Source: [Bacillus] enclensis (GTDB lineage: Bacteria > Bacillota > Bacilli > Bacillales > Bacillaceae_B). Taken from it: DNA of 64,000 nt. The stretch spans positions 376,793 to 440,792 of the forward strand of contig NZ_KQ758484.1 in the NCBI RefSeq assembly GCF_001456935.1. Direction: 5' to 3'. The first letter of the stretch is position 1, and each line of letters starts with the position of its first letter. Below, piece after piece: positions 17,785 to 30,164 of the stretch. The position numbers and the translations under genes were made by a program. The notes below the pieces were generated by a model. The model was not told the origin of the DNA. It ran no database searches and saw nothing but the letters and a program-made list of their open reading frames with translations.

Positions 17785-18030
17785 TTATTGAAGTCTGCTT
17801 TCAACTTGCTGACAAACTTCATCAGCACTCATCCCGCTTGCTTCAATGACTGAACCTTGAGTGACAGTATTCTGGATGCCCATCACGTTTGAGTCCAATC
17901 CAGTCACAACACAGCAGTCACAGCCCTGCGCATCTGATTCCTGCTTAAGTTCAACAACGTCATGTCCTTTTGCACGCAAAGCTTCCACAACATTTGTAAG
18001 AGACTCTTCAACACCAATTTTTCTTGCCAT
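17785..18030 (-). CDS. ykuS: UPF0180 family protein YkuS
   Basis: 81 residues, matching UPF0180/YkuS proteins in length and composition ([24 protein letters not shown], landmarks GVEESLTNV and GHDVVEL; then [16 protein letters not shown]). The CDCC motif and GQDSNVMGI-like segment are family features. Function is unknown; the fold is a small nucleotide- or metal-binding-like domain. ATG follows GGAGGTAGTTTGAG. Monocistronic, convergent with isp. Confidence 0.88.
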
Positions 18031-18160
18031 CTCAAACTACCTCCATTTTTTATCAAGCTCCGGCGGCACCCCGCCTCCGCTTTCATATTTCTAACATTAG
18101 GATTTTCCTTCCGCCAAAAAGATATTCATCAAACTTCCGAAGATTTTGTGGGGTACTATC

Positions 18161-18232
18161 ACCGCTGTTGATTTCCGTACAAGACTTCGCTTTCAGCAGG
18201 AGGCTTCGTCTTGTACACCAATCAACAGATGG
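18161..18232. repeat. family A repeat, copy 3 (internally deleted)
   Basis: Outer arms only: GATTTCCGTACAAGACTTCG and CTTCGTCTTGTACACCAATC. The arm core is GTACAAGAC/GTCTTGTAC, another paired change relative to copy 1; the central about 60 bp is missing. Confidence 0.85.
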
Positions 18233-18349
18233 AGATGACTCATAATTGATTCCCAAATTCATTTTCCCAGAGAAGTAAACGGTCATCATAACTATATTTG
18301 TTTTGAAGGAAATTGATTGGTGGTACCTTAACACTAACTTAAAACCCGG

Positions 18350-18473
18350 AGTGGATTGGAGCGGAAGGCATTTGACTCCTGCGGGAAGAGAGGAAAGGTC
18401 GAGACCCCGCAGGAGCGCAGCGACGAGGAGGCTTGACTTCCTCCCCGCGGAAAGCAAATGCCTGAAGCGAAAA
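18350..18473. repeat. family A repeat, copy 4 (divergent arms)
   Basis: The central module ACTCCTGCGGGAAGAG..GAGACCCCGCAGGAGCGCAGCGACGAGGAGGC is kept in pieces, with CCGCGGAAAGC near the end. The arms are GGCATTTG and CAAATGCC rather than the GTGCAAGAC type, but still complementary. Opposite orientation to copies 1-3. The rest of the 18.03-18.62 kb gap shows nothing beyond the SigB promoter. Confidence 0.85.
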
Positions 18474-18559
18474 GGAACGGTCCAGGATATTACACCAAAA
18501 TGTTTAGAAACCCTGATTCAAGACAAAATAACAAAGAGTGTTCAAATCCAATTGGATAT

Positions 18560-18584
18560 GTTTACTTGCCGGCTCTCCGGGTAA
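18560..18584 (+). promoter_or_regulatory. SigB-type promoter of the ferritin-like gene
   Basis: GTTTAC at 18560 and GGGTAA at 18579 with a 13-bp spacer match the general-stress SigB consensus (GTTTAA, GGGTAT), 39 bp ahead of the start codon. Confidence 0.65.
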
Positions 18585-18622
18585 ATACTCTATATAAACA
18601 ATTAACAAAAGGTGGTAACATA

Positions 18623-19057
18623 ATGGATGCAAAGAAAAAAGAATTAATCGATGGATTAAATGAAGACCTGGCTAACGAATATGCAGCAGTCATTCTATAT
18701 ACGAACTATGCTGCAGTCGTCAGCGGACTTTATCGTCAGATATTGAAGCCTTTCTTCGAAGAGGAAATTCCTGATGAACAAGGTCACGCTTTATACTTAG
18801 CAGAAAAAATCAAAACATTAGGCGGAGATCCCACAACGACTCCCGCTCCTGTCAAACAGACAGATGACGTGAAAGAAATGCTTGTGGAAGGCCGCAAAGC
18901 GGAAGCTGACACAATTGAACGCTACAAAAAACGCAAAGAGCAGGCTGAGGAGCTTGGCTTGACGGAGCTTGTCATCAAGCTTGAGGATATGATTGCGGAT
19001 GAAACGCATCACCTTGAAGAATTTGACCGTCTGCTGAAAGATCCTTCTTTCAGTTAA
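18623..19057 (+). CDS. ferritin-like / Dps-family iron storage protein
   Basis: 144 residues, a single four-helix ferritin-like domain. Iron ligands are suggested by ANEYAAVILY (helix 1 Glu), PDEQGHALYLAEKI (ExxxH) and DMIADETHHLEEFDRLL (ETHH, ExxH). Proteins of this type oxidise and store Fe(II) and can protect DNA. I place the start at the ATG at 18623 behind AAAGGTGGTAACATA; upstream codons overlap repeat A. A SigB promoter directly upstream marks it as a general stress gene. Convergent with the helicase gene, sharing a terminator. Confidence 0.85.
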   Translation: MDAKKKELIDGLNEDLANEYAAVILYTNYAAVVSGLYRQILKPFFEEEIPDEQGHALYLAEKIKTLGGDPTTTPAPVKQTDDVKEMLVEGRKAEADTIERYKKRKEQAEELGLTELVIKLEDMIADETHHLEEFDRLLKDPSFS

Positions 19058-19063
19058 ATTATA

Positions 19064-19110
19064 AAAATAAGGAAAGACCGTATTTTTGACCGGTCTTTCC
19101 TTATTTTTTT
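19064..19110. terminator. bidirectional terminator between ferritin and helicase genes
   Basis: Long stem AAAATAAGGAAAGACCG/CGGTCTTTCCTTATTTT; the helicase stop codon lies in its distal arm. Confidence 0.9.
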
Positions 19111-21383
19111 ATGACTTCGAATGGTGTCCACTCTTCAGGCAGGAGGGCTTTATACTTCGGTGTCAGATAACGGTCATCGATCAACCGCAAAACCCCTTTG
19201 TCTTTTTCCGAACGAATCAGCCTCCCACCTGACTGGAACACCTTGTTTAACCCTGGATAAACGTACGTATAATCAAATCCGTTCTTTCCGTCTTCCCCGT
19301 AAAACTCTTTCATCATATCCTGTTCCAGCCCGGGCTGCGGGAGACCGACACCTACAACAACCACTCCATTCAATCGATCCCCTTTCAAATCGATGCCTTC
19401 AGAAAAGATTCCTCCCAGTACACCGAGCCCGATTACTCTCTTCTCTGGTTCTGCCTGAAAGCACTGCAGGAATTCTTCTCTCTCATTTTCACTCATAATC
19501 GTTTCCTGAATAAGAAATTCAGCATCAAGTGAAAGCTCCTTTAACTTCTCATATACTTCCCTCATATAGGCATACGAGGAAAAGAATACGAGGAAATTAC
19601 CTTTGTTATACAGTATACAATCGGCAATGGATTGGACGATTCTCGGCAGTGTGCGCTCCCTGTCCCTGTACCGTGTCGATATCGGATCGATTTCCACTTT
19701 CCATTGGTCCTTTTCAAAAGGCGAAGGAATGAGGAATCGGTAATCTTCTTCACTTCCCCCCAGCTGCTGGAAGTAATAAGAAAACGGATGCAGGGTAGCT
19801 GAAAAGAAGACGGAGGAGTGATATGGTTTTTTCACATCAGATATCAACCTGGAAGGATCGATGCAGGAGAGCTTCACAGTCAGATCCGTCCCTTGCGAAT
19901 CAAGGACAAATCGGTGTTCTCCCCCATATATCCTGGATATCCTCACATAGTGAAGGGAATCAAAGTATAACTGCAGAAAACCCTGGGACCACTCTTTGCC
20001 TGTCTCTCCCAAACACTTTTCTGCCGTTTCCACAAAAGCTTCTACTTCCTCCAGAAGCTCCTGATCCATATCTTTTTTCCATTCACCTTTTCCTTGCATT
20101 TCTTTTCTTAATGAAATGAATTGTTTATTAACAGCCTGGATGCTTTTCTTTAGAGCCCCGTGTTCCTGGTACAGATTTTTCACGTCAAGGAATGAGGACT
20201 TGCTCAACACTGCCGAAAACATCTCCCTCCCCCTGTTTACGAGATTATGCGATTCATCTATTAAAAGAACAGAGTTCTTCCTGCTTTCATCGCTTAATCT
20301 TTTCAACGATACTTTCGGGTCGAACACATAGTTGTAATCACAGATCACCCCGTCGACTAAATAAGATAGGTCGATTGAAAATTCAAAAGGACATACCTTA
20401 TGTTTCCTTGCATACCGCTCAATGATCTCGCGCGTCATAATTGTTTCTTGATCAAGTATATCAAGGAGGGCACCATTGATTCGATCATAATAGCCGTTCG
20501 CAAATTCACAGTATTCTTTCTGACAGTTGGTTTCTTCCTTGAAACAGATTTTATCTTTGGCCGTTATCGTCACGGAGGTTTGGCGGAGTCCTTTTTCCTC
20601 AAGAAGGGAAAGCGCCTCCTCTGCCACCGTCCTGGTAATCGTTTTTGCCGTCAGATAGAACCATTTTTCCGGCCCATCGCCGTTCATCCCTTTGATTGTC
20701 GGGAAAAGAGTGGATATCGTCTTCCCGGTGCCGGTTGGTGCATTTGCGTAAAGTGTTTTCTCCTCACCAACCGTTTTATAAACCGCCCCGGCGAGCTGCT
20801 TCTGCCCTTTTCTGAAAGAAGGGAAAGGGAAAGAAACCTCAGAGATGCTTTCCCTGAATCTTTTTCTATTCTGCAACATCACTTTCGCGAATGGTGTAAA
20901 TGCAATGAGCGTATTTCGGACGATATCTTCAAGGTCGATGAAACGATATGTCCTTTCAAGGATTTTCACTTGTTCTGTATCGACTTGAATATAGGTCAGC
21001 TGAACGTCGATGGATTCGAGGTTTCTGTCCCTGGCCAGCAAATAGGCATAGCACTCTGCCTGCGCCCAATGGACACGGGAACCCCCGTCAATATCCGAAA
21101 GGTCTTTTGCGGAGGATTTTATTTCATCGATCTTAACTTTTTCTCCCTCGTACAAAATCCCGTCACATCGGCCTTCCAGGATAAAAGAAAGCTCATCTGA
21201 CATGATTTCACCCTTCAGGAATACTTCCTTCTCATCGCCGTCTTTGTACCCTTTCTGCAGAAGCTGATGCAGTCTTGTCCCAATCGTCATTGAAGAACGG
21301 GCCTGAAATTTCAAGTCGATGCTTCCTTCTCTATAAACGAACTCCACCAGTTCCCTGACGGACACTTTCACTTTTTCCACCAC
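19101..21383 (-). CDS. PD-(D/E)XK nuclease-like + XPD/DinG-type Fe-S DNA helicase fusion
   Basis: 760 residues. Residues 1-160 look like a Cas4/RecB-type PD-(D/E)XK nuclease domain: TRLHQLLQKGY (His), LEGRCDGILYEG (Asp) and VKIDEIKSS (E-x-K). From about residue 195 a superfamily 2 helicase follows: Walker A NAPTGTGKTIS, an Fe-S cluster region with four Cys (CFKEET, NCQKEYCEF, VCPFEF), Walker B LLIDESHNL (DESH) and the C-terminal QSGGRLIRSEKDKG motif VI. Such proteins unwind DNA 5'-3' in repair. Starts ATG at 21383. No CRISPR or phage genes are nearby, so it is probably a housekeeping repair enzyme of Bacillaceae. Confidence 0.85.
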   Translation of the reverse strand: MVEKVKVSVRELVEFVYREGSIDLKFQARSSMTIGTRLHQLLQKGYKDGDEKEVFLKGEIMSDELSFILEGRCDGILYEGEKVKIDEIKSSAKDLSDIDGGSRVHWAQAECYAYLLARDRNLESIDVQLTYIQVDTEQVKILERTYRFIDLEDIVRNTLIAFTPFAKVMLQNRKRFRESISEVSFPFPSFRKGQKQLAGAVYKTVGEEKTLYANAPTGTGKTISTLFPTIKGMNGDGPEKWFYLTAKTITRTVAEEALSLLEEKGLRQTSVTITAKDKICFKEETNCQKEYCEFANGYYDRINGALLDILDQETIMTREIIERYARKHKVCPFEFSIDLSYLVDGVICDYNYVFDPKVSLKRLSDESRKNSVLLIDESHNLVNRGREMFSAVLSKSSFLDVKNLYQEHGALKKSIQAVNKQFISLRKEMQGKGEWKKDMDQELLEEVEAFVETAEKCLGETGKEWSQGFLQLYFDSLHYVRISRIYGGEHRFVLDSQGTDLTVKLSCIDPSRLISDVKKPYHSSVFFSATLHPFSYYFQQLGGSEEDYRFLIPSPFEKDQWKVEIDPISTRYRDRERTLPRIVQSIADCILYNKGNFLVFFSSYAYMREVYEKLKELSLDAEFLIQETIMSENEREEFLQCFQAEPEKRVIGLGVLGGIFSEGIDLKGDRLNGVVVVGVGLPQPGLEQDMMKEFYGEDGKNGFDYTYVYPGLNKVFQSGGRLIRSEKDKGVLRLIDDRYLTPKYKALLPEEWTPFEVIKK

Positions 21384-21481
21384 GCCTCACCACGACCTTC
21401 GTTAAATTATTCTTCTAACTTATTGGGACAACTCATATCGTTGATAATAGATACATTTTCGATCGAACGGAGGAAAATAGA

Positions 21482-22084
21482 ATGAAAGTAAGATTCACCT
21501 TTTACTGCATCGGACTCCTATGCCTTTCCTTTGGGGTCTCACTCATCATAAAAGGAAACCTGGGAGCAGCTCCATGGGATGCACTGGCCGTAGGGGAGTC
21601 TTACTTGTTTCATCTCAGTATCGGGACATGCATCTTTCTGAATGGCTGCCTTCTCATCGTCATCAATGCGCTATTATTAAGGGAAAGAATTGAATGGCCC
21701 GCTGCCCTGTCCATATTTCTTATAGGTATGATGGTGGACTTTTGGATTAAAACCGGTCTATCACAAGTTGAGCCTGCAGGCTTTACTCAGCAGCTGTCAT
21801 TCGTCCTCGCCGGCATATTGATCCTCGGCTTAGGCATTTCCATCTACCTGCAGGCAAAGCTCCCTTCAAGTCCGATGGATACATTCATGATCGCGCTCCA
21901 CCGCCGCTTCGGCCTCAATCTCCGTAATGCACGCCTGCTGAACGAAGCCATAGCCATCACGCTCGCCATGGTCTTTCACGGAGCAGTCGGCATCGGGACT
22001 GTCATCGTTGCCTGTACGCTAGGTTTCATCATTCATTTCTTCTATCCTATCATGGAACATATGTACGGTAAATGGAGTAATTAG
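21482..22084 (+). CDS. YczE/YyaS/YitT-type membrane protein
   Basis: 200 residues with five hydrophobic segments; family landmarks are IKGNLGAAPWDALAVG near residue 25, LGISIYLQAKLPSSPMDTFM and VACTLGFIIHFFYP. B. subtilis YczE of this family influences antibiotic (bacillomycin/surfactin) production, but the molecular function is unknown. ATG at 21482 behind GGAGGAAAATAGA. It diverges from the helicase gene and converges on the formamidase operon. Confidence 0.8.
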   Translation: MKVRFTFYCIGLLCLSFGVSLIIKGNLGAAPWDALAVGESYLFHLSIGTCIFLNGCLLIVINALLLRERIEWPAALSIFLIGMMVDFWIKTGLSQVEPAGFTQQLSFVLAGILILGLGISIYLQAKLPSSPMDTFMIALHRRFGLNLRNARLLNEAIAITLAMVFHGAVGIGTVIVACTLGFIIHFFYPIMEHMYGKWSN

Positions 22085-22115
22085 TTCGAAAGCATTTCAT
22101 CCAGGCTCACCAATC

Positions 22116-22157
22116 AAAAAAAGAGCTATCCTTATCACAAGAATAGTCCCTCTTTTA
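22116..22157. terminator. bidirectional terminator
   Basis: AAAAAAAGAG..CTCTTTT arms with an inner CTATCCTT/AAGAATAG pairing, between YczE and the amidase gene. Confidence 0.55.
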
Positions 22158-22181
22158 AGGTAATAAAAAAGAAAATGGTCA

Positions 22182-23117
22182 TTATTTTCTTATTGCCCCA
22201 TGCGGCAATAGTGCGTGCACCCCTTTAACACCATTAACAGTTTGTGTGATGCGCAGATTGACAACTAAGCTTGCTAAAGCCATCGCTTCCTTTCGTTCCA
22301 TTTCTAACAGCTCCGTCATTAATGAGAGCATCTCATCTAGAGCAATCATCGTCGCTTCATTCAAGTCTTCATGAAAACCCATCGTAACCCAGCCAGTGGG
22401 GGTTTTGGCTCTGGGGAAATCAATTTTCACATCATCGCGAACACTAAGCGTCAAACTTACGTGCTCCATGGGGCATTCTAATGCTGGTGAAGCTACTTCT
22501 CCATCACCTTGCACCGCGTGTCCGTCACCAACAGAGAATAAACCACCTGAAACCGAAATGGGCAAATAAAGCGTACTCCCTGCAACTAATTCTTTACAAT
22601 CAATATTTCCACCACAATATCTAGGTGGAGATGTAGAGTGAATTCCTGATTCATCTGGGGGCATCCCCATAATCCCCATAAATGGCGACAAAGTTACTTG
22701 GTGACCTTTATTGCTTTGACCAACCATTTGTTCCGTATCCAACTGCCAGTTAAGGTGGTATTCTTCCCCTTCAGCCAGTCCTAATCTATTATTATTTTCA
22801 GAAGGGAAACCTCCCGCAGATGTCCACCCCCAGCTCCCAGGGCGTATATCGTTAATTTGTATCTCCAACGCCATCCCTGGTTCAGCACCATTAATTGAGA
22901 TAGGACCAATCATAGCATGCCCTTGGTCTATCGGATTTTCTCGGGGTTCGAATCGTTTACGCTGACGATCTTTCCGATGCGGCTCTAATCCCCATGCTGC
23001 TTCAAGTGTTGAAATATGAAGTGTTTCGCCGGACTCAATGGTAATAACCGGTTCAAATTCTTTCGAAAATGAGCCATGTAAGGTAGATCGCTCTGGTTTT
23101 ATAGTATGAATTTTCAT
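22182..23117 (-). CDS. acetamidase/formamidase family amidohydrolase
   Basis: 311 residues, the length of bacterial acetamidase/formamidase (FmdA/AmdA) proteins. Landmarks are PINGAEPGMALEIQINDI-like text (GPISINGAEPGMAL), MGIMGMPPDE, PPRYCGGNIDCKEL, SVGDGHAVQGDGEV and TGWVTMGFHEDL. It should hydrolyse short amides to acid plus ammonia. It starts 30 bp after the stop of the HTH-F1beta regulator, so the two are probably co-transcribed. Its DNA reads visibly more AT-rich than its neighbours, which may indicate acquisition by transfer. Confidence 0.88.
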   Translation of the reverse strand: MKIHTIKPERSTLHGSFSKEFEPVITIESGETLHISTLEAAWGLEPHRKDRQRKRFEPRENPIDQGHAMIGPISINGAEPGMALEIQINDIRPGSWGWTSAGGFPSENNNRLGLAEGEEYHLNWQLDTEQMVGQSNKGHQVTLSPFMGIMGMPPDESGIHSTSPPRYCGGNIDCKELVAGSTLYLPISVSGGLFSVGDGHAVQGDGEVASPALECPMEHVSLTLSVRDDVKIDFPRAKTPTGWVTMGFHEDLNEATMIALDEMLSLMTELLEMERKEAMALASLVVNLRITQTVNGVKGVHALLPHGAIRK

Positions 23118-23146
23118 TTCAAATCCACTCCTATTTTAGTGATTTA

Positions 23147-24193
23147 TCATAACCTTCCCCTAAACTTTAATTCTACAGGTTTGAGATGATTGTAATCACC
23201 TGAAAGGATTTTTTCGATATCTATTATACTGTCCTGCACGGAGACCCGTTCTCCTTTAATACGTGTGAATTCTTCTGCAACATGAAACGGCTGGCTGAGA
23301 TAGGCTTCAAGTCTTTCTCCGATGGCGTAAAGCTCAAGATCCGCTTCAGGTATCTTATCTTTACCGAGAGAGTTTAATAGAACCCTGATTTCTTTATAAC
23401 GTCTTAGCAGTTTTTTCGCTTTGCGATTCACTTTACTGTGACGATCCTCCAGTGAGTCCTCTTCCATCAATAAAGATGTGGACTGGACAGGATGGATAGC
23501 TGGATAGATGCCCCGGCTCGCCAAGTCGATATCGAAATAACACATCGTATCAAGCGGGCCGTATGGATCGTCTTCATCCACTGCCGTTCCGCTTGGGTCG
23601 AACAGGATGGTCGTGATATCAGGATAACCCTCCGCTTCAAACCGTTCCCGCAGCTGATAAAGATCACCGGAAACCACAAATGAGCGGTCTACCTGCAGAA
23701 TGACCTTCGCCTTCTCATCCCTCAATGAGACCTCAGCAAATGCATCCTCGATGGAATGCACTTTTGCGTCAATAAACCCTTCAAGATCGCTTAACCCTGT
23801 GAATTCTTTATCTGGTGCCAACAGGATGGTCTCAAAACCTTTTTCTTTTAAGTTTTGGGTGATTTCTGCCAATACAACGAGCTGCCCCACCTGTGCCCTC
23901 GCAACAAAACCGTTGATTCCGCCTTTTACGATTGGAGCAAATAAATCCACTGTTTTTATTCCCGTTTCAATCATACTTAATTTCCCTCCTTGAATAATCA
24001 ATTCATCCAGAGAACAATTGGCAAGATTGGCCAGCGTGACCAGAGTTCTCACTTCTGCACGGCCGACGGATATTTTGCCGGTGCAAAGATTTGATACTGT
24101 CGCGGGTCTAAGACCCACCGCTTTCGCAGCTGTAGTCAAATTCGGCACTCTGCGGCGAAGCAATGAAACATTCAATGATAATTGATCTTGCAT
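23147..24193 (-). CDS. XRE-type HTH regulator fused to a degenerate F1-ATPase beta-subunit domain
   Basis: 348 residues. Residues 5-66 are an XRE-like HTH (LTTAAKAVGLRPATVSNLCTG). Residues 76-115 (TGIKTVDLFAPIVKGG, NGFVARAQVGQLVVLAEI) align by eye with the ATP synthase beta segment around its P-loop, but GGAGVGKT has become ARAQVGQL, so the Walker A Lys and Thr are gone. Residues 228-243 (GIYPAIHPVQSTSLLM) and 260-335 (LLRRYKEIRVLL, YLSQPFHVAEEF, ILSGDYNHLKP) match the beta-subunit's later catalytic and C-terminal helical domains. The central Walker B region is shortened. I infer a transcription regulator using a dead F1-beta fold as ligand-sensing or oligomerisation module, controlling the adjacent amidase. 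Confidence 0.85.
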   Translation of the reverse strand: MQDQLSLNVSLLRRRVPNLTTAAKAVGLRPATVSNLCTGKISVGRAEVRTLVTLANLANCSLDELIIQGGKLSMIETGIKTVDLFAPIVKGGINGFVARAQVGQLVVLAEITQNLKEKGFETILLAPDKEFTGLSDLEGFIDAKVHSIEDAFAEVSLRDEKAKVILQVDRSFVVSGDLYQLRERFEAEGYPDITTILFDPSGTAVDEDDPYGPLDTMCYFDIDLASRGIYPAIHPVQSTSLLMEEDSLEDRHSKVNRKAKKLLRRYKEIRVLLNSLGKDKIPEADLELYAIGERLEAYLSQPFHVAEEFTRIKGERVSVQDSIIDIEKILSGDYNHLKPVELKFRGRL

Positions 24194-24207
24194 TTGAAAT
24201 CGCCTCC

Positions 24208-24277
24208 TTACTTTATAGAGTAATATATATTACGCTTTAAAACAATAATAATTTCCCTTTAAAGTAATTTTTTTACT
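24208..24277. promoter_or_regulatory. AGTAA/TTACT dyads upstream of the HTH-F1beta gene
   Basis: TTACTTTATAGAGTAA (24208-24223) overlaps the region just before the regulator's ribosome-binding site; AGTAA..TTACT (24263-24277) lies 40 bp further upstream in AT-rich DNA. These are candidate autoregulatory operators. Nothing else is visible in the 24.19-24.47 kb gap. Confidence 0.4.
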
Positions 24278-24475
24278 CTCAAAAGAATTTAAGTTCACGT
24301 TATTGCCACAAATATCCTTTTTCACTTTTTCCTGTTCACTGCTGACTCCTCTCTCACTGATCCAGAAGTCCCTTTGGAAAATTAAAAGAAAAACCATTCA
24401 TGTCCCGGCCCCTTCGTTAATAGATATTAAGGAAGAAGAATTCACACGAACTACTACAATAAAGGATGACTGTCT

Positions 24476-25411
24476 ATGAATAATCTTAAATCGAGCCCCT
24501 CTCCCTTTATACGGACCAAACCTTTTTACTGGATTTCGCTTATCCTTTTTATCGGGATATTCTTCTGCATCGCTTATTTCCTGCCGGCAGATAAAGGACA
24601 AACCTTTCCTTTCTTTCAAAATGAACAGAGAAAGCCGCTTGTGATTGCACATCAAGGCGGAAAGCTGCTTGCACCCGGTAATACAATAGAAGCATTCCGG
24701 AACGCTGAAAAGCTTGGGGTAGATGTACTTGAAATGGATATACATATAACCAAGGACGGGCATCTGGTGACCATCCATGACCCAACTGTCGATGCCACCA
24801 CCGACGGGCAGGGGCTGGTTGCAGACTATACACTGGAAGAACTGCAGCGTCTGGACGCCGGATATACATTTAAGAATGAAGAAAGAGAACATTCATTTCG
24901 AGGTAAAGGCGTCTATATCCCGACCCTTGAAGAAGTATTCCAGCGTTTCCCCGAAATGAAAATGAATATTGAAGTTAAAGACGATAATCCTCCTGAAAGA
25001 GTGGATGAGATCATCCAAAAGCTGAATGGGCTGATTAAAGAATATAATATGGAAAACAACGTACTAATTGCTTCATTCGACCAAAGCATCGTAGACCGGT
25101 TCATTCTTGCATCCGAAGGCAGGATTGCCGTCCAGGCAGGCACACAAGAAGTGAAAAAATTTGTTATTCTGCACAAGCTTTTATTGAGGAATCTCTATAA
25201 ACCGAAAGTACAAGGGTTTCAGCTGCCGCTGCAAAAAGGAAAAATCGATTTTACAGATCCTGTTCTCATCAACGGAGCTCACCGCTTAAACCTGCGTGTC
25301 CATTATTGGACAGTTAATGACCGGCAGACAATGAAACGCCTGATTGACGCCGGCGCTGACGGGATCATAACCGACAGGCCTGACCTGCTTTTGAAACTGC
25401 TCGATAACTAA
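24476..25411 (+). CDS. glycerophosphodiester phosphodiesterase, membrane-anchored
   Basis: 311 residues. An N-terminal transmembrane anchor (WISLILFIGIFFCIAYFL, residues 22-39) is followed by a GDPD TIM barrel: IAHQGGKLLAPGNTIEAF (catalytic His and substrate Arg/Glu region; the usual HRG is HQG here), DVLEMDIHITKDGHLVTIHD (metal Glu/Asp and second His) and MNIEVKDD. The C-terminal VHYWTVND and GADGIITDRPD are standard. It should cleave glycerophosphodiesters to glycerol-3-phosphate and alcohol outside the membrane. ATG at 24476. The HRG-to-HQG change is worth noting. Confidence 0.88.
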   Translation: MNNLKSSPSPFIRTKPFYWISLILFIGIFFCIAYFLPADKGQTFPFFQNEQRKPLVIAHQGGKLLAPGNTIEAFRNAEKLGVDVLEMDIHITKDGHLVTIHDPTVDATTDGQGLVADYTLEELQRLDAGYTFKNEEREHSFRGKGVYIPTLEEVFQRFPEMKMNIEVKDDNPPERVDEIIQKLNGLIKEYNMENNVLIASFDQSIVDRFILASEGRIAVQAGTQEVKKFVILHKLLLRNLYKPKVQGFQLPLQKGKIDFTDPVLINGAHRLNLRVHYWTVNDRQTMKRLIDAGADGIITDRPDLLLKLLDN

Positions 25412-25600
25412 GTAATTGTAATCAAGGAAAAAAGCTTTATTTTCCCTTCGACATTTCACAACAATTTCTGATATTCGTGACAAATCGATTATTATACTTG
25501 TACAATAACTTTAAAACCCATTAGTCCTTTGTGCCTATATAAGTATCACCCATAGTCTGTTAGGGTGAAGGTAAGTCAAATCAACGAAAGTAGAATATCT

Positions 25601-25927
25601 ATGACAGTAAATGTGTTTTTAGATGATTACCGACACTGTCCACAAGGTTACGTTCTGGCAAAAGACATCGATGAATGTATAGACCTGCTGAAGAGATTTC
25701 CCATCTCTCATCTTTCATTGGATCATGACTTGGAGAGCAAGACGAGAAATGGTCTCATGCTCGTGCATTACATGGTGAAGTATCAATTGTTCGCTGAATC
25801 CATCACGATTCACTCGGCAAACTCAGTTGCCGGAAAACAAATGTTCACGTATTTGAAAGAGGCTCAGAATGAAAACTTGATGCCCCGGTCGATTCACGTC
25901 AGATTACGGCCGTTACCTCTTAGATAA
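25601..25927 (+). CDS. cyclic-phosphate-processing receiver-like (cREC) domain protein
   Basis: 108 residues. The sequence VNVFLDDYRHCPQGYVLAKD, ISHLSLDHDLESKTRNGLMLVHYM and SITIHSANSVAGKQMF resembles the stand-alone receiver-like domain family (cREC) with an N-terminal LDD, a central DHDL and ITIHSAN; it is proposed to process cyclic phosphates, without proof. I place the start at the ATG at 25601; a GTG 12 codons upstream is in frame but has no better ribosome-binding site. Monocistronic. Confidence 0.7.
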   Translation: MTVNVFLDDYRHCPQGYVLAKDIDECIDLLKRFPISHLSLDHDLESKTRNGLMLVHYMVKYQLFAESITIHSANSVAGKQMFTYLKEAQNENLMPRSIHVRLRPLPLR

Positions 25928-25937
25928 TTTCATATAA

Positions 25938-25968
25938 AGGAACTGTTCATTCCGGACAGTTCTTTTTT
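25938..25968 (+). terminator. terminator of the cREC gene
   Basis: Stem AACTGTTC/GACAGTT followed by T6. Confidence 0.75.
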
Positions 25969-26046
25969 GTTTTATGGTTTTTTTCATTTTTTCACTATTT
26001 TCTTTATAATAGTAATAGGATTGATTTTTTGAAAGGGTAGTCTTAT

Positions 26047-27120
26047 ATGAATTTTCTTAAACGTTTCAGGTTTGCGGGGGGACGGATTGCGAAGACCGGG
26101 ATTGCGGTTTTTTTGACGGCCTTTGTCTGCGAACTGTTAAACTGGCCCGCTATGTTTGCTGTCATTACGGCCATTGTGACAATCGAGCCGACAGCAGCAG
26201 ATTCCATTAAAAAAGCGTTTGTCCGATTTCCCGCATCTGCATTGGGTGCGTTATTTGCGGTGATCATTTCCCCGCTTCTCGGAGATCACGCAATCACGTA
26301 TGCACTGGTTGCCATCCTGACGATCATAACCTGCCACAAGCTTCGTCTTGATGCCGGGATACTTGTTGCTACTTTGACCGGTATAGCCATGATTCCCACG
26401 ATTCATGATCATTATGTTGCAACATTCTTTATCAGGCTGGGTACAACCAGTTTGGGACTGATCGTATCCACCCTGGTCAATCTGTGGATCCTTCCGCCTA
26501 AATATTCACCGATCATCAGCAGGAATATCCATGACTTATATGTAAAAACGGGGAACTTATTAGAAAGAAGAGTGAACGAAGTTATTAAGGGAAACTCCCT
26601 GCACCTGGAAACGAAGATGATCTTCACTGACATCACGCGTGAGATCGATAAAACAAATCTTCTGTGTGAATATGAAAAAGAAGAAATGAAGCTCCACCGT
26701 TCCAGCCGGAAAGCCCTGCGGAACCATCATTATCATTTCAAGAAGCTCAACCTGTTAAGGCAGATCCATTTTCATATCGGCAATCTCATCTATCTCCCTG
26801 TGCATGATAAGTCTTTTACTCCTCAGGAGAAGGATAAGATTCTCCAGGCTGTTCATTCACTCAAGAATATCCTCCATCATCCTTCTTATGACATGGAGGA
26901 TGGACATTTCCTCTTGATGAAAGAGTTGCTTCAGGAATTCTGGGAGGATCATGAGGAGCTTCACAACCGAACCATGGAATCGATCAGGCATTATTTTTCC
27001 TGCGAGACAATCTTACTATATGAACTGCTGTCCATCCATGATTTATTGGAGGAGCTGAATGAACTGCATGTATTGGAAAAACAGCATGAAAACGTCTTGG
27101 AGAAATCACTGCAAGTATAA
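26047..27120 (+). CDS. aromatic acid exporter (ArAE/FUSC-like) family membrane protein
   Basis: 357 residues. The first about 150 residues hold four or five hydrophobic segments (IAVFLTAFVCELLNWPAMFAVITAIVTIEPT as landmark pieces WPAMFAVITAIV and ASALGALFAVIISPLL); the rest is a long, soluble, His- and Glu-rich helical domain (KLNLLRQIHFHIGNLIY). This layout matches the YqjA/DUF939-type half of aromatic acid exporters. Substrate is unknown. ATG at 26047 behind GAAAGGG. Convergent with the acyl-CoA dehydrogenase gene. Confidence 0.8.
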   Translation: MNFLKRFRFAGGRIAKTGIAVFLTAFVCELLNWPAMFAVITAIVTIEPTAADSIKKAFVRFPASALGALFAVIISPLLGDHAITYALVAILTIITCHKLRLDAGILVATLTGIAMIPTIHDHYVATFFIRLGTTSLGLIVSTLVNLWILPPKYSPIISRNIHDLYVKTGNLLERRVNEVIKGNSLHLETKMIFTDITREIDKTNLLCEYEKEEMKLHRSSRKALRNHHYHFKKLNLLRQIHFHIGNLIYLPVHDKSFTPQEKDKILQAVHSLKNILHHPSYDMEDGHFLLMKELLQEFWEDHEELHNRTMESIRHYFSCETILLYELLSIHDLLEELNELHVLEKQHENVLEKSLQV

Positions 27121-27159
27121 AAGGATCGCGTGGAACCATTGTTCCTGCGATCCTTTTAT
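27118..27159. terminator. bidirectional terminator
   Basis: Stem AAAAGGATCGC/GCGATCCTTTT with GTGGAAC/GTTCC inner pairing, between two converging genes. Confidence 0.85.
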
Positions 27160-27167
27160 AACGGCTA

Positions 27168-28337
27168 TTATTCTTTTAACGCTTTACCAGCGAGCATGGA
27201 GATGACCATGTCATCCATCGGCGGGTTATGGAGACCTGCTCTTACGTCCCTGTAGTACCTCTGCATAGGGTTTGATCTGAACAGACTTCTGGCCCCGACG
27301 ATCCGCATGGCGGTGTCGACAATCCGGAAAGCGCTGTTTGTCACGATATGCTTTACAGAGGCAAGCTCTGCTGCCATCCCGTGCCTCTTATCCGGTTCCT
27401 TATCCCACTTATCGGCGACTGAATAAAGAATCTGCCTTGCTTTGAAGAGCTCCAGTTCAATTTCTCCAATTTTCCTTCTGACCTCCGGAACGTCTTTGAT
27501 CGGACCCGGCAGGCTGTTGGGAGAGTACTCTTTGGCAAAATTGATGGCCTCATTCCTGGCTGCAATCGCGACTCCTATATAACAGGCCGGGATATGCAGC
27601 AGCCATGCTTTCGGCAGCTCCTCCCGGGAATCACGTGCATCACTGTCCCGTTCTACCAGGGCATTCCCTGCAACAGTTACATCCTGAAGGACGAGATCAT
27701 CACTGCCCGTACCTTTCATAGAGATGGTATCCCAGGTCTCTTCAATCGATACCCCTTCCTGAGTATGATCGATAAGGAAGAATCCTTTCTCACCGGATTC
27801 ACCGATTCGAGCCGACACCAAAGAATAATCCAGCACCCTGGCCATCGAGGTGAATGTTTTGCGTCCGTTCAATATCCATCCATCTTCGGATTGGTCCGCC
27901 TTTGTTTCAGGAAGGCCTCCCCTGGTCGGGCTTCCGGTTGCCGGCTCCGTTGCCGCCCGGTTTATAAGCGCCTTGTCTTTGACGACTTTTGCACATAGGC
28001 TCTTGAACGTTTCTTCCTTCCAGGGACGGTTTTCAGTGAGTTCCATTAACCCGCCGATATGCCAGCCGATTGACAGCGATGTAGCGGCATCCCCTGTGGC
28101 CAGCCTTTCCTGAAGCATCACCATTTCATACAAACTGATCTCTTCCCCGCCATATTCCCTCGGCACGCTCAAGGACGCATAACCTGATTTCTTTATATCA
28201 GAGAAATTTTCAAATGGGAAAGCCTCTTCCCTGTCAAACCTTTCAGCACGTGCAGAAAATGTATCAGCCAGCTTTCCTGCCATTTCCAGCAGTTTTCGCT
28301 GACGATCGTTTTGAAGATATGATTCATATAAATCCAC
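27168..28337 (-). CDS. acyl-CoA dehydrogenase family protein
   Basis: 389 residues with the usual three-part ACAD layout: helical N-domain (YASLSVPREYGGEEISLYE), beta-domain (NRAATEPATGSPTRGG, GRKTFTSMARVLD) and C-terminal helical domain (IVDTAMRIVGARSLFRSNPMQRYYRDVRAG in pieces). The ending resembles the desulfurisation/DszC-like or nitroalkane-type ACAD subgroup more than classical fatty acyl-CoA dehydrogenases; the classical catalytic Glu is not obvious. The start is GTG at 28337 after GAGGAGG. No operon partners. Substrate unknown. Confidence 0.8.
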   Translation of the reverse strand: MDLYESYLQNDRQRKLLEMAGKLADTFSARAERFDREEAFPFENFSDIKKSGYASLSVPREYGGEEISLYEMVMLQERLATGDAATSLSIGWHIGGLMELTENRPWKEETFKSLCAKVVKDKALINRAATEPATGSPTRGGLPETKADQSEDGWILNGRKTFTSMARVLDYSLVSARIGESGEKGFFLIDHTQEGVSIEETWDTISMKGTGSDDLVLQDVTVAGNALVERDSDARDSREELPKAWLLHIPACYIGVAIAARNEAINFAKEYSPNSLPGPIKDVPEVRRKIGEIELELFKARQILYSVADKWDKEPDKRHGMAAELASVKHIVTNSAFRIVDTAMRIVGARSLFRSNPMQRYYRDVRAGLHNPPMDDMVISMLAGKALKE

Positions 28338-28477
28338 TAAAAATCCTCCTCTGCCGACATTGACTTACTTCTATGATAATCAATCTATTTTAAGTAAACA
28401 AAGATTTTGTCCCATTAAACCAATCTGATTAATTATTATTCGTCGTTTCGTGACACCTGCCAGATTTGAAAGCACAC

Positions 28478-28517
28478 AAAAAACCTGCTGCAATGTTGAC
28501 GATGCAGCAGGTTTTTT
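28478..28517. terminator. terminator of the alanine/glutamine symporter gene
   Basis: Stem AAAAAACCTGCTGCA/TGCAGCAGGTTTTTT. Confidence 0.85.
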
Positions 28518-28523
28518 CCTGTG

Positions 28524-29981
28524 TTATGAAGCGTTCTCTTCTTTATCCACCTTGTATTCCTGTTCCCAATACTCAGCGTTCTTGATACCAAGCTTTGTCG
28601 AGTTAAAGACCGGATCAAGCCCCTGCTTCTTCTGTGCTTCGTAATCCTTGAGGGTACGAAGAGCAGGCTTTGCAAGGATCAGGATGGCAATCAGGTTGAG
28701 CCATACCATGAGGCCAAGCCCGATATCCCCAAGTGCCCATGCAAGCGCCGCTTCTTTTACGGCTCCGTAGAATGTGACTCCAAGCAAGACAAGCTTGAGA
28801 ATGAAAATGGCCGGCTTGGCGTTTTTGCCTCTTAATAAATATGCTACATTCGTTTCAGCCATATAGTAATATGCCATAATGGTTGTAAAGGCAAAGAAGA
28901 ATAGTGCGACCGCAACGAACCCTGCACCGAAGCCGGGAATGACTGATTCAATCGCTGCCTGTGTATAAGCAGGACCTGCCTCAACGCCTTCCAGATTCGT
29001 GACAATCGCAGTCCCGTCAGGTTTTTCTACGTTATAGGCACCTGTAAATAAAATCATGAATGCCGTTGCCGAACAAACTAGAAGCGTATCAATGTAAACG
29101 GAAGATGCCTGCACCAAACCTTGTTTGGCCGGATGGGATACTTCAGCTGCTGCTGCATGGTGAGGTCCAGTACCCTGACCTGCTTCGTTGGAGTAGACTC
29201 CTCGTTTTACGCCCCAGGCAATCGCGCTTCCGATGATTCCTCCGAATGCTGCGTCTGCACCGAATGCACTTTTGAAAATAAGTGAAATGACACCAGGAAT
29301 CTCTCCAATGTTCATCCCCACAATCACAAGAGCCAGAAGGATATAAGCAACAGCCATGAATGGCACGACGTAGGAAGCTACACCTGCAATACGCTTAACT
29401 CCCCCGAAGATGATCACGGCAAGAAGGATGACTAATCCAATTCCTGTCACGGACGTATTAACTCCAAACGCATTATCAAGTCCCTGTGCAATGGAGTTTG
29501 ATTGGATCCCCGGCATCAATACCCCGATCGCAAGGAGTGTAGCCAGTGAAAATAGTACTGCATACCACTTCACACCGATCCCTTTTTCAATATAATACGC
29601 CGGTCCCCCGCGGTATTCCCCATCCTGTTTCACTTTATAGATCTGTGCCAGTGTCGATTCGATGAAGGCGCTGCTCGCCCCGATGAAAGCGATGGCCCAC
29701 ATCCAGAAGACAGCACCCGGTCCGCCGAATGCGATGGCGGTTGCCGTACCTGCAATATTCCCTGTCCCTACACGCCCTGACAAGGATAGTGCCAGAGACT
29801 GGAATGAGGATACCCCGGATTTCGAGCTGCTCCCTTTAAACATTTGAACCACCATGTCCTTAATGAGACGCACCTGCAAAAACCTTGTTAAGATAGAAAA
29901 TAAAAGACCTACACCTAAACAAAAGTAAATCATCACGGGTGACCAAAGAATACCCACCAATTTGCCTACAATTTCTTCCAC
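28524..29981 (-). CDS. sodium:alanine/glutamine symporter (AGCS family)
   Basis: 485 residues with about 10-11 hydrophobic segments. AGCS signatures are FQSLALSLSGRVGTGNIAGTATAI (landmark GRVGTGNIAG), GGPGAVFWMW, EYRGGPAYYIEKG and GVYSNEAGQGTGPHHAAAAEVSHP. It co-transports Na+ with alanine, glycine or glutamine (AlsT/GlnT-like). The start is GTG at 29981 after AAGGGGGAAACACT. Monocistronic with strong terminator. No riboswitch is visible upstream. Confidence 0.9.
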   Translation of the reverse strand: MEEIVGKLVGILWSPVMIYFCLGVGLLFSILTRFLQVRLIKDMVVQMFKGSSSKSGVSSFQSLALSLSGRVGTGNIAGTATAIAFGGPGAVFWMWAIAFIGASSAFIESTLAQIYKVKQDGEYRGGPAYYIEKGIGVKWYAVLFSLATLLAIGVLMPGIQSNSIAQGLDNAFGVNTSVTGIGLVILLAVIIFGGVKRIAGVASYVVPFMAVAYILLALVIVGMNIGEIPGVISLIFKSAFGADAAFGGIIGSAIAWGVKRGVYSNEAGQGTGPHHAAAAEVSHPAKQGLVQASSVYIDTLLVCSATAFMILFTGAYNVEKPDGTAIVTNLEGVEAGPAYTQAAIESVIPGFGAGFVAVALFFFAFTTIMAYYYMAETNVAYLLRGKNAKPAIFILKLVLLGVTFYGAVKEAALAWALGDIGLGLMVWLNLIAILILAKPALRTLKDYEAQKKQGLDPVFNSTKLGIKNAEYWEQEYKVDKEENAS

Positions 29982-30164
29982 AGTGTTTCCCCCTTTTCTC
30001 CCAAAAATTATCTAACTATTAAGAATTATATTTTATTTGACACAAATTAGACAATCTTTTTTTCTCCGTAAAAAAGCCGTTATACTCCAAAACCCTTTCA
30101 TAGCAGTACCCGGCCTGTATAAAAAAATTTTTTGGGCACCCTAATGTCAAAAGGAGGTTATATC

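Follow-up and report, generated by a model that had tools for sequence, protein, structure and literature searches.

A putative one-component transcription regulator with a catalytically dead F1-ATPase beta core in [Bacillus] enclensis, and its predicted operator array and regulon

RESULTS AND DISCUSSION

A gene in the window (the whole 64,000-nucleotide stretch of [Bacillus] enclensis DNA analysed here) is proposed, from its sequence and those of its orthologs, to encode a one-component transcription regulator in which a helix-turn-helix (HTH) region is joined to a catalytically dead F1-ATPase beta core (Table 1). The protein belongs to a family whose active site is dead, and an array of dyads stands upstream of the family's genes and is associated with a further set of genes. 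In the explanation that we favour with somewhat better than even confidence, the regulator would be an oligomeric autorepressor, its pseudo-beta core serving both assembly and sensing, with a regulon of hydrolase and exporter genes; array binding, repression, oligomer formation and the response to a ligand are what we infer.

Table 1. Features of the regulator locus, in positions of the window
Feature	Positions	Strand	Description	Basis
Regulator gene	23147..24193	(-)	348 aa; HTH region and dead F1-ATPase beta core	ORF and profile matches
HTH region	23996..24181	(-)	Residues 5-66; Cro/C1-like	Sub-threshold HTH_26/31/3 matches, model helices, conservation
Pseudo-F1-beta domain	23150..23986	(-)	Residues 70-348	Profiles, alignment, fold searches
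Dead Walker A, ARAQVGQL	23879..23902	(-)	Residues 98-105	Ortholog alignment, Lys to Gln in 60/60
Candidate operator dyad O1, TTACTCTATAAAGTAA	24208..24223	(-)	Over by-eye -10 TACTCT (24217-24222); adjoins RBS	
Candidate operator dyad O2, TTGTTTTAAAGCGTAA	24230..24245	(-)	Over by-eye -35 TTGTTT (24240-24245)	
Candidate operator dyad O3, TTACTTTAAAGGGAAA	24252..24267	(-)		Dyad search
Candidate operator dyad O4, ATTCTTTTGAGAGTAA	24273..24288	(-)		Dyad search
Acetamidase/formamidase-family gene	22182..23117	(-)	29 bp downstream of regulator	FmdA_AmdA, E 9e-30
GDPD-family gene	24476-25411	(+)	Divergent; ~190 bp from array	PF03009, E 6e-45

Domain layout, distribution and origin of the regulator

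The pseudo-beta domain comprises a nucleotide-binding fold and a C-terminal helical domain, both recognisable as F1-beta in profile and fold searches, and lacks the N-terminal beta-barrel. The preliminary description of this locus had read the gene as an HTH region joined to a dead AtpD-like domain, a layout borne out by profiles, fold searches and orthologs: the fold search of residues 70-348 against F1-beta returned a beta-type fold, and the profile of ATP synthase beta (TIGR01039) matched the protein with 122 bits, below its equivalog cut-off of 462.85. VIA fold alignments to F1-beta mostly begin at residue 70. Residues 1-69 are mainly helical in the predicted model, where no beta-barrel crown is seen and five helices fall within residues 9-65, the fold searches having covered mainly residues 70-348. 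As to the XRE-like HTH previously placed at residues 5-66, the helices and the conservation are compatible with it, the stretch LRPATVSNL (residues 28-36) being almost invariant among orthologs and HTH_26 being matched at E<=0.01 by 41 of 55 of them, whereas the window protein itself scores below the Pfam gathering score (HTH_26, 18.6 bits versus 22). A genome search found a single full-length copy of the regulator in its own genome and a separate, true atpD.

Full-length, stop-free orthologs were present in 36 of the 61 genomes searched, the window's own included (32 of 36 genomes within the window's genus and 4 of 25 outside it). Some genomes are represented twice in the data, once by a genome locus and once by a named contig. 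The search for further HTH-AtpD fusions that had been suggested at the outset gave a profile match at E<=1e-60 in 87 of the 397 genomes examined within the order; these 87 represent 30 of 135 genera. G261, the sole match in its genus, has no more than a fragment containing an in-frame TAG. Relatives known by name that carry an ortholog belong to Rossellomorea, Halobacillus, Evansella, Gottfriedia, Mesobacillus, Fredinandcohnia and Cohnella, and a further ortholog, recorded as a "hypothetical protein", lies on a Paenibacillus megaplasmid. A frameshift or an assembly error as the source of the fusion is ruled out by the full-length orthologs.

In a tree of 29 beta rows (L084 having been dropped by the motif filter), 5 of 7 non-beta rows and 18 of 60 orthologs, the latter grouped as a single clade (100/100) whose stem is long (4.2 changes per column) and joins at a fork without resolution beside Bacillota AtpD, which supports the origin from a beta subunit (atpD) that had been put forward.

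Among minor observations on the family, genome G068 carries a second, HTH-less pseudo-beta paralog of 269 aa that begins at the beta core (L194:4922-5731, (+)) and has an array at L194:4806-4889 (E 5.3e-11, versus 2.6e-4 at the full-length copy); this paralog is possibly a co-oligomer or an antagonist of the regulator. Regulator relics with an in-frame stop lie at G001:C10:28566-28751 and G261:C43:76203-76649 (L197). The record "Chryseobacterium sp. ISL-80" (L053, L365) has a Bacillaceae locus whose upstream DNA is the same as that of G223:C13; its name looks wrong, and it is probably the same record as G223:C13.

A dead active site with a conserved pocket

The active-site alignment contained 60 distinct orthologs and 37 "AtpD" rows (30 beta, 7 non-beta), and the bovine residue numbers given for orthologs are equivalences mapped through it. 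The Walker-A Lys is replaced by Gln, and the Walker-A Thr by Leu or Phe, in all 60 orthologs; the equivalent of Arg260 is deleted in 60/60 along with approximately 24 residues past Walker B; the Arg after STS is gone in 60/60; and the catalytic Glu, present in only two orthologs, is gone in 58/60. Also absent from the regulator is the C-terminal tail of AtpD. The Walker-B Asp is retained in 60/60, directly followed by a new Arg (60/60), and the equivalents of Tyr345 and Phe424 are Y/F in 60/60 and F/Y in 59/60, respectively. R260, Y345 and F424 are among the nucleotide-site residues of bovine beta in the available part of a published account (PMC9615146).

Orthologs share a mean identity of 26% over aligned columns with the cell's own AtpD, and 82 columns are invariant across the 55 ortholog rows of the conservation alignment. 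With ATP chemistry dead and so many columns invariant, the regulator protein is a pseudoenzyme, apparently maintained by selection. An artefact or decaying pseudogene, arisen by chance fusion of atpD debris with an HTH, would fit the dead active site and the relics in G001 and G261; it is refuted by the comparative data, namely orthologs in 30 of 135 genera (one by a fragment), the same invariant columns and the conserved operators described below, and is given virtually no credence.

The retained Walker-B Asp and the Tyr345 and Phe424 equivalents would also suit an energy or nucleotide sensor, in which ADP, AMP or some other nucleotide would occupy the adenine pocket unhydrolysed and hydrolase genes would thereby respond to the energy state. 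We consider such a sensor quite improbable, given that every ortholog has lost Lys and Thr of Walker A, the equivalent of Arg260 and the Arg that follows STS, that nearly all have lost the catalytic Glu, and that peptidase, amidase and exporter targets would be odd for an energy regulon.

Aurovertin was considered as a ligand of the pseudo-beta core and appears unlikely: the site equivalent, by our own mapping, to bovine beta R412, the aurovertin contact named in the part of the literature available (PMC9615146), is Ala or Ser in 60/60 orthologs, where the true AtpD of the cell has Phe. The same partial source gives Bacillus PS3 and B. firmus OF4 as naturally aurovertin insensitive (PMC9615146).

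An operator array upstream of the regulator gene

The dyads that had been noticed near the regulator proved to be four in number (24208-24288), with centres spaced 22, 22 and 21 bp, and are enriched across 60 upstream regions. In these 60 distinct 220-nt regions, 275 dyad-like sites were counted against 150 (sd 12, maximum 182) in shuffled sequence. GTAA/TTAC half-sites numbered 392, compared with 170 (sd 12, maximum 198) over 200 shuffles; since the shuffles were mononucleotide and the upstream regions are related, these counts denote enrichment and not independent events. The commonest dyad spacing is 22 bp, and the commonest half-site steps are 12 bp (TTAC to GTAA) and 10 bp (GTAA to TTAC), with a period of 22 bp; it is this 10/12-bp alternation that places approximately one half-site on each helical turn.

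Beneath the two gene-proximal dyads lies a by-eye -35/-10 pair of the TTGnnn/TAnnnT type with a spacing of 17, and of 27 core sequences 25 carry the TAnnnT at a constant offset; the other two are the 37-nt rows. A generic promoter scan did not return this pair, and the five promoters that it found, against 5.4 expected, represent no excess. Judged from sequence position, the array argues for autorepression by the regulator.

The recurrence of half-sites about every 11 bp, in up to four dyads, the span of the array over the regulator's own promoter region and the loss of ATP chemistry in 60/60 orthologs are all compatible with a role of the pseudo-beta domain as a scaffold only, that is, a ring or filament oligomerisation module that allows the HTHs to coat phased half-sites in the manner of Lrp, with no ligand, so that protein level alone regulates. 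This reading, which we hold to be rather unlikely but worth serious consideration, sits less well with the conservation of pocket residues (the Walker-B Asp and both aromatics, 59-60/60) that a mere scaffold would not need, and with a changing hydrolase/exporter regulon, which suggests an inducer.

Association of the array with other genes

The regulon became visible only with profile models and not with simple patterns. Matches to the pattern GTAA-N5..7-TTAC-N8-GTAA did not outnumber those to the reversed pattern used as a control. The same was true of TTACTNTNNNAAGTAA when one mismatch was allowed (33 versus 121 in the genome of the window); an exact match to TTACTNTNNNAAGTAA occurs in this genome solely at the regulator's array. 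Two profile models were employed: R1, built on sequence only from 28 regulator promoters, and R2, a 38-bp core from 27 sites in which target and regulator promoters are mixed, so that its matches on those promoters are circular. Searches with R1 or R2 over more than 40 genomes ran with stricter filters, and "no array seen" in them is weaker than "no array". The Paenibacillus megaplasmid copy, which lies outside the R1 training set, has an array directly upstream (R1, E 3.7e-9).

Across 61 genomes, R1 yielded 12 sites other than the regulators' own at E<=1e-3 among the matches listed, all of which end 0-22 bp ahead of the first start codon of an ORF; six precede genes for M3 oligoendopeptidases and six precede genes for a protein of ~300 aa with TPR and alpha/beta-hydrolase-like parts. 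These sites are spread over eight genomes and, because seven of the eight are of the window's genus and one lies outside it, are taken to reflect shared descent and not independent events. Among the matches listed for the 25 genomes that lack the regulator, no R1 site reached E<=1e-3 (best E 0.005). The three M3 target proteins scanned all exceed the TIGR02289 cut-off, and both TPR-hydrolases scanned exceed that of PF22316 and score below every NCBIfam cut-off. The proteins encoded by the TPR-hydrolase genes L231, L238 and L239 have an N-terminus that resembles TPR and a C-terminus with weak similarity to alpha/beta-hydrolases. In paralog controls, both partly circular through the use of R2, the array was found at 7/7 M3 loci of the 46-100% clade versus 0/23 of the ~40% loci examined (one partial match, E 0.41), and at 6/6 close versus 0/6 distant TPR-hydrolase loci.

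A second R1 search, of 40 regulator-bearing genomes outside the genus at E<=0.005, located arrays before M3 genes in G111, G197 and G222 (all above the TIGR02289 cut-off) and again in G038, with a weaker site at the M3 gene of G006. In G224, arrays stand ahead of an exporter-type ABC transporter and of an alpha/beta-hydrolase, and G219 has a site 345 bp ahead of its regulator gene. Sites in G208 and G233 fall inside coding sequence and were judged to be chance matches.

R2 discriminated between regulator-bearing and regulator-lacking genomes both at E<=1e-3 (66/87 versus 1/310) and at 0.02 (77/87 versus 14/310), counted among the matches listed; by the same count, 21 of the 87 bearing genomes are without a match at E<=1e-3 and 10 at 0.02, six of these 10 having an R1 match. 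The one site at 1e-3 in a lacking genome (G156) is not closely followed by a fitting gene. Other R2 sites lie 162 bp ahead of an alpha/beta-hydrolase gene in G261 and ahead of a 111-aa ORF in G388 (L360) which by eye resembles an M3 start, has no family match and may be a relic. In the window's own genome no array beyond the regulator's own was found at E<=0.02 among the matches listed, and an R2 locus scan of its M3 homolog (L282) found none. Array matches L240-L244, L320, L321, L356 and L361-L364, mostly in coding sequence or without a fitting start, were attributed to chance.

The regulator gene, the M3 oligopeptidase clade and the TPR-alpha/beta-hydrolases are thus the apparent recurrent targets, and these associations suggest that the regulator controls its own gene together with a varying set of enzymes that cleave peptides and amides. 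A regulon that combines an exporter with hydrolases acting on peptide, amide and ester bonds suggests detoxification or salvage. A sensor of F1 assembly, whose pseudo-beta would pair with free alpha or gamma and so report unassembled ATP synthase, is in keeping with a general beta fold that extends to the C-terminal helical domain; it is nevertheless judged highly improbable, as approximately 24 residues past Walker B and the beta-barrel crown are missing and no ATP-synthase gene was seen behind the array sites examined.

Proposed mechanism

It is proposed that the HTH protein binds the array with approximately one HTH per GTAA half-site and helical turn, the bound regulator being an oligomer held by its beta-type core. 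Occupancy of O1 and O2, over the probable -10 and -35, would block RNA polymerase, and the regulator would thereby repress itself as well as M3 oligopeptidase, alpha/beta-hydrolase, amidase and ABC-exporter genes. It is less certain that the pseudo-beta core acts as the signal input. As the core, its phosphate chemistry dead, retains the Walker-B Asp and an aromatic pocket on the adenine side, a small molecule may sit there, probably one akin to the peptides, amides or esters cleaved or exported by the regulon, and would change the oligomer such that the promoters are released.

ATP-synthase beta is the target of natural ATP-synthase poisons, among them peptides and polyketides. Conceivably, the dead F1-beta acts inside the cell as a decoy of this target, binding such poisons and inducing peptidases, amidases, esterases and an exporter by which they would be broken down or expelled; on this view the aromatics of the pocket would have been kept for the poison and ATP chemistry discarded. 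We regard this decoy as unlikely.

Relation to known systems

While an HTH coupled to a ligand-binding domain is a known arrangement, an F1-beta core in the place of the sensor appears unprecedented as far as searched. Searches of the open-access literature found neither a transcription factor derived from a rotary-ATPase subunit nor an XRE/Cro-C1 regulator with an F1-beta domain, in agreement with the earlier statement that no described regulator of this architecture was known. XRE/Cro-C1 regulators share with the present protein an HTH-like N-terminus, palindromic AT-rich operators and an autoregulation layout; to our knowledge, no F1-beta effector domain is known in that group. Lrp/AsnC proteins oligomerise, bind through their HTHs to operators whose phasing follows the helical turn, and carry a RAM effector domain. 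The phased operators are alike and the effector domains unrelated, no RAM domain being among the Pfam matches listed for the window protein (up to E 10, with filters that drop most above ~0.1). BlaR1/MecR1 is a membrane receptor that signals through a protease; its sensor domain has its origin in a drug-target fold, and it controls a drug-cleaving enzyme. Its fold is different from that of the present protein, with which it would share the sensor logic only hypothetically.

Compared with F1-ATPase beta (AtpD, TIGR01039), the regulator has no beta-barrel, a dead Walker A and an added HTH region, and is missing the catalytic Glu, the Arg after STS, the post-Walker-B stretch and the C-terminal tail. 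Mycoplasma F1-like ATPases (NF045858, NF045934) are likewise AtpD paralogs outside ATP synthase; in the available part of their description they have Walker A and B, alpha/beta-like gene pairs and seven-gene clusters, and no DNA-binding domain is mentioned there (PMC3369863). Inspection by eye of ORFs of at least 100 aa at 18000-30000 showed no alpha-like gene near the regulator.

If the operators are the regulator's own, a testable regulon follows, and what a dead F1-beta senses becomes answerable. A core bioenergetic enzyme would then be shown to be recruitable as a regulator, and a hint of function would be provided for the M3 oligopeptidase clade and the TPR-alpha/beta-hydrolases, which are loosely named by the family models scanned.

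The amidase and other neighbouring genes

The amidase is a probable operon partner of the regulator. It scores 104.3 bits with FmdA_AmdA (gathering score 27) and misses the formamidase equivalog NF045496 (68.1 versus a cut-off of 500), and no terminator-like site was found in the regulator-amidase gap. Its control by the regulator, as the preliminary description proposed, has partial comparative support: arrays stand before amidase genes in four genomes, and the association is sporadic. R1 identified two of these outside the genus (G176 and G197, homologs by search) and R2 added G293 and G234. The order in G176 and G293 is array, amidase, regulator, whereas in G197 and G234 the array-preceded amidase is distant from the regulator; the amidase of G234 is 55% identical to that of the window.

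Blastp at E<=1e-5 detected no amidase homolog beside the remaining 62 ortholog loci checked (flanks of 1.5 kb at 19 of them and up to 5 kb at the rest, a few genomes entering twice), and 15 other sampled genomes of the window's genus gave no match at E<=1e-25. The amidase is accordingly rejected as a core conserved partner, as is a conserved gene neighbourhood in general, neighbours differing from genus to genus. Close amidase homologs (at least 40% identity) number 74 in 397 genomes, 35 of them in regulator-bearing genomes, where five are tied to the array or the regulator and 30 had no array among the matches listed. Thirteen of the 35 loci were scanned individually with R2 (10 without a match at E<=1), and the others were judged from the genome-wide search with its stricter filters. 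The amidase of the window seems to have joined a regulon that was already in place.

In the close relatives L026, L027 and L028, a membrane histidine kinase of 433-441 aa (one copy scanned) is encoded downstream of the regulator, at the place of the amidase, and in Fredinandcohnia quinoae (L048) a gene that clusters with these kinase genes lies divergently upstream of the regulator. The divergent GDPD-family gene of the window is retained beside the regulator in L025, L026 and L028 and might be co-regulated with it.
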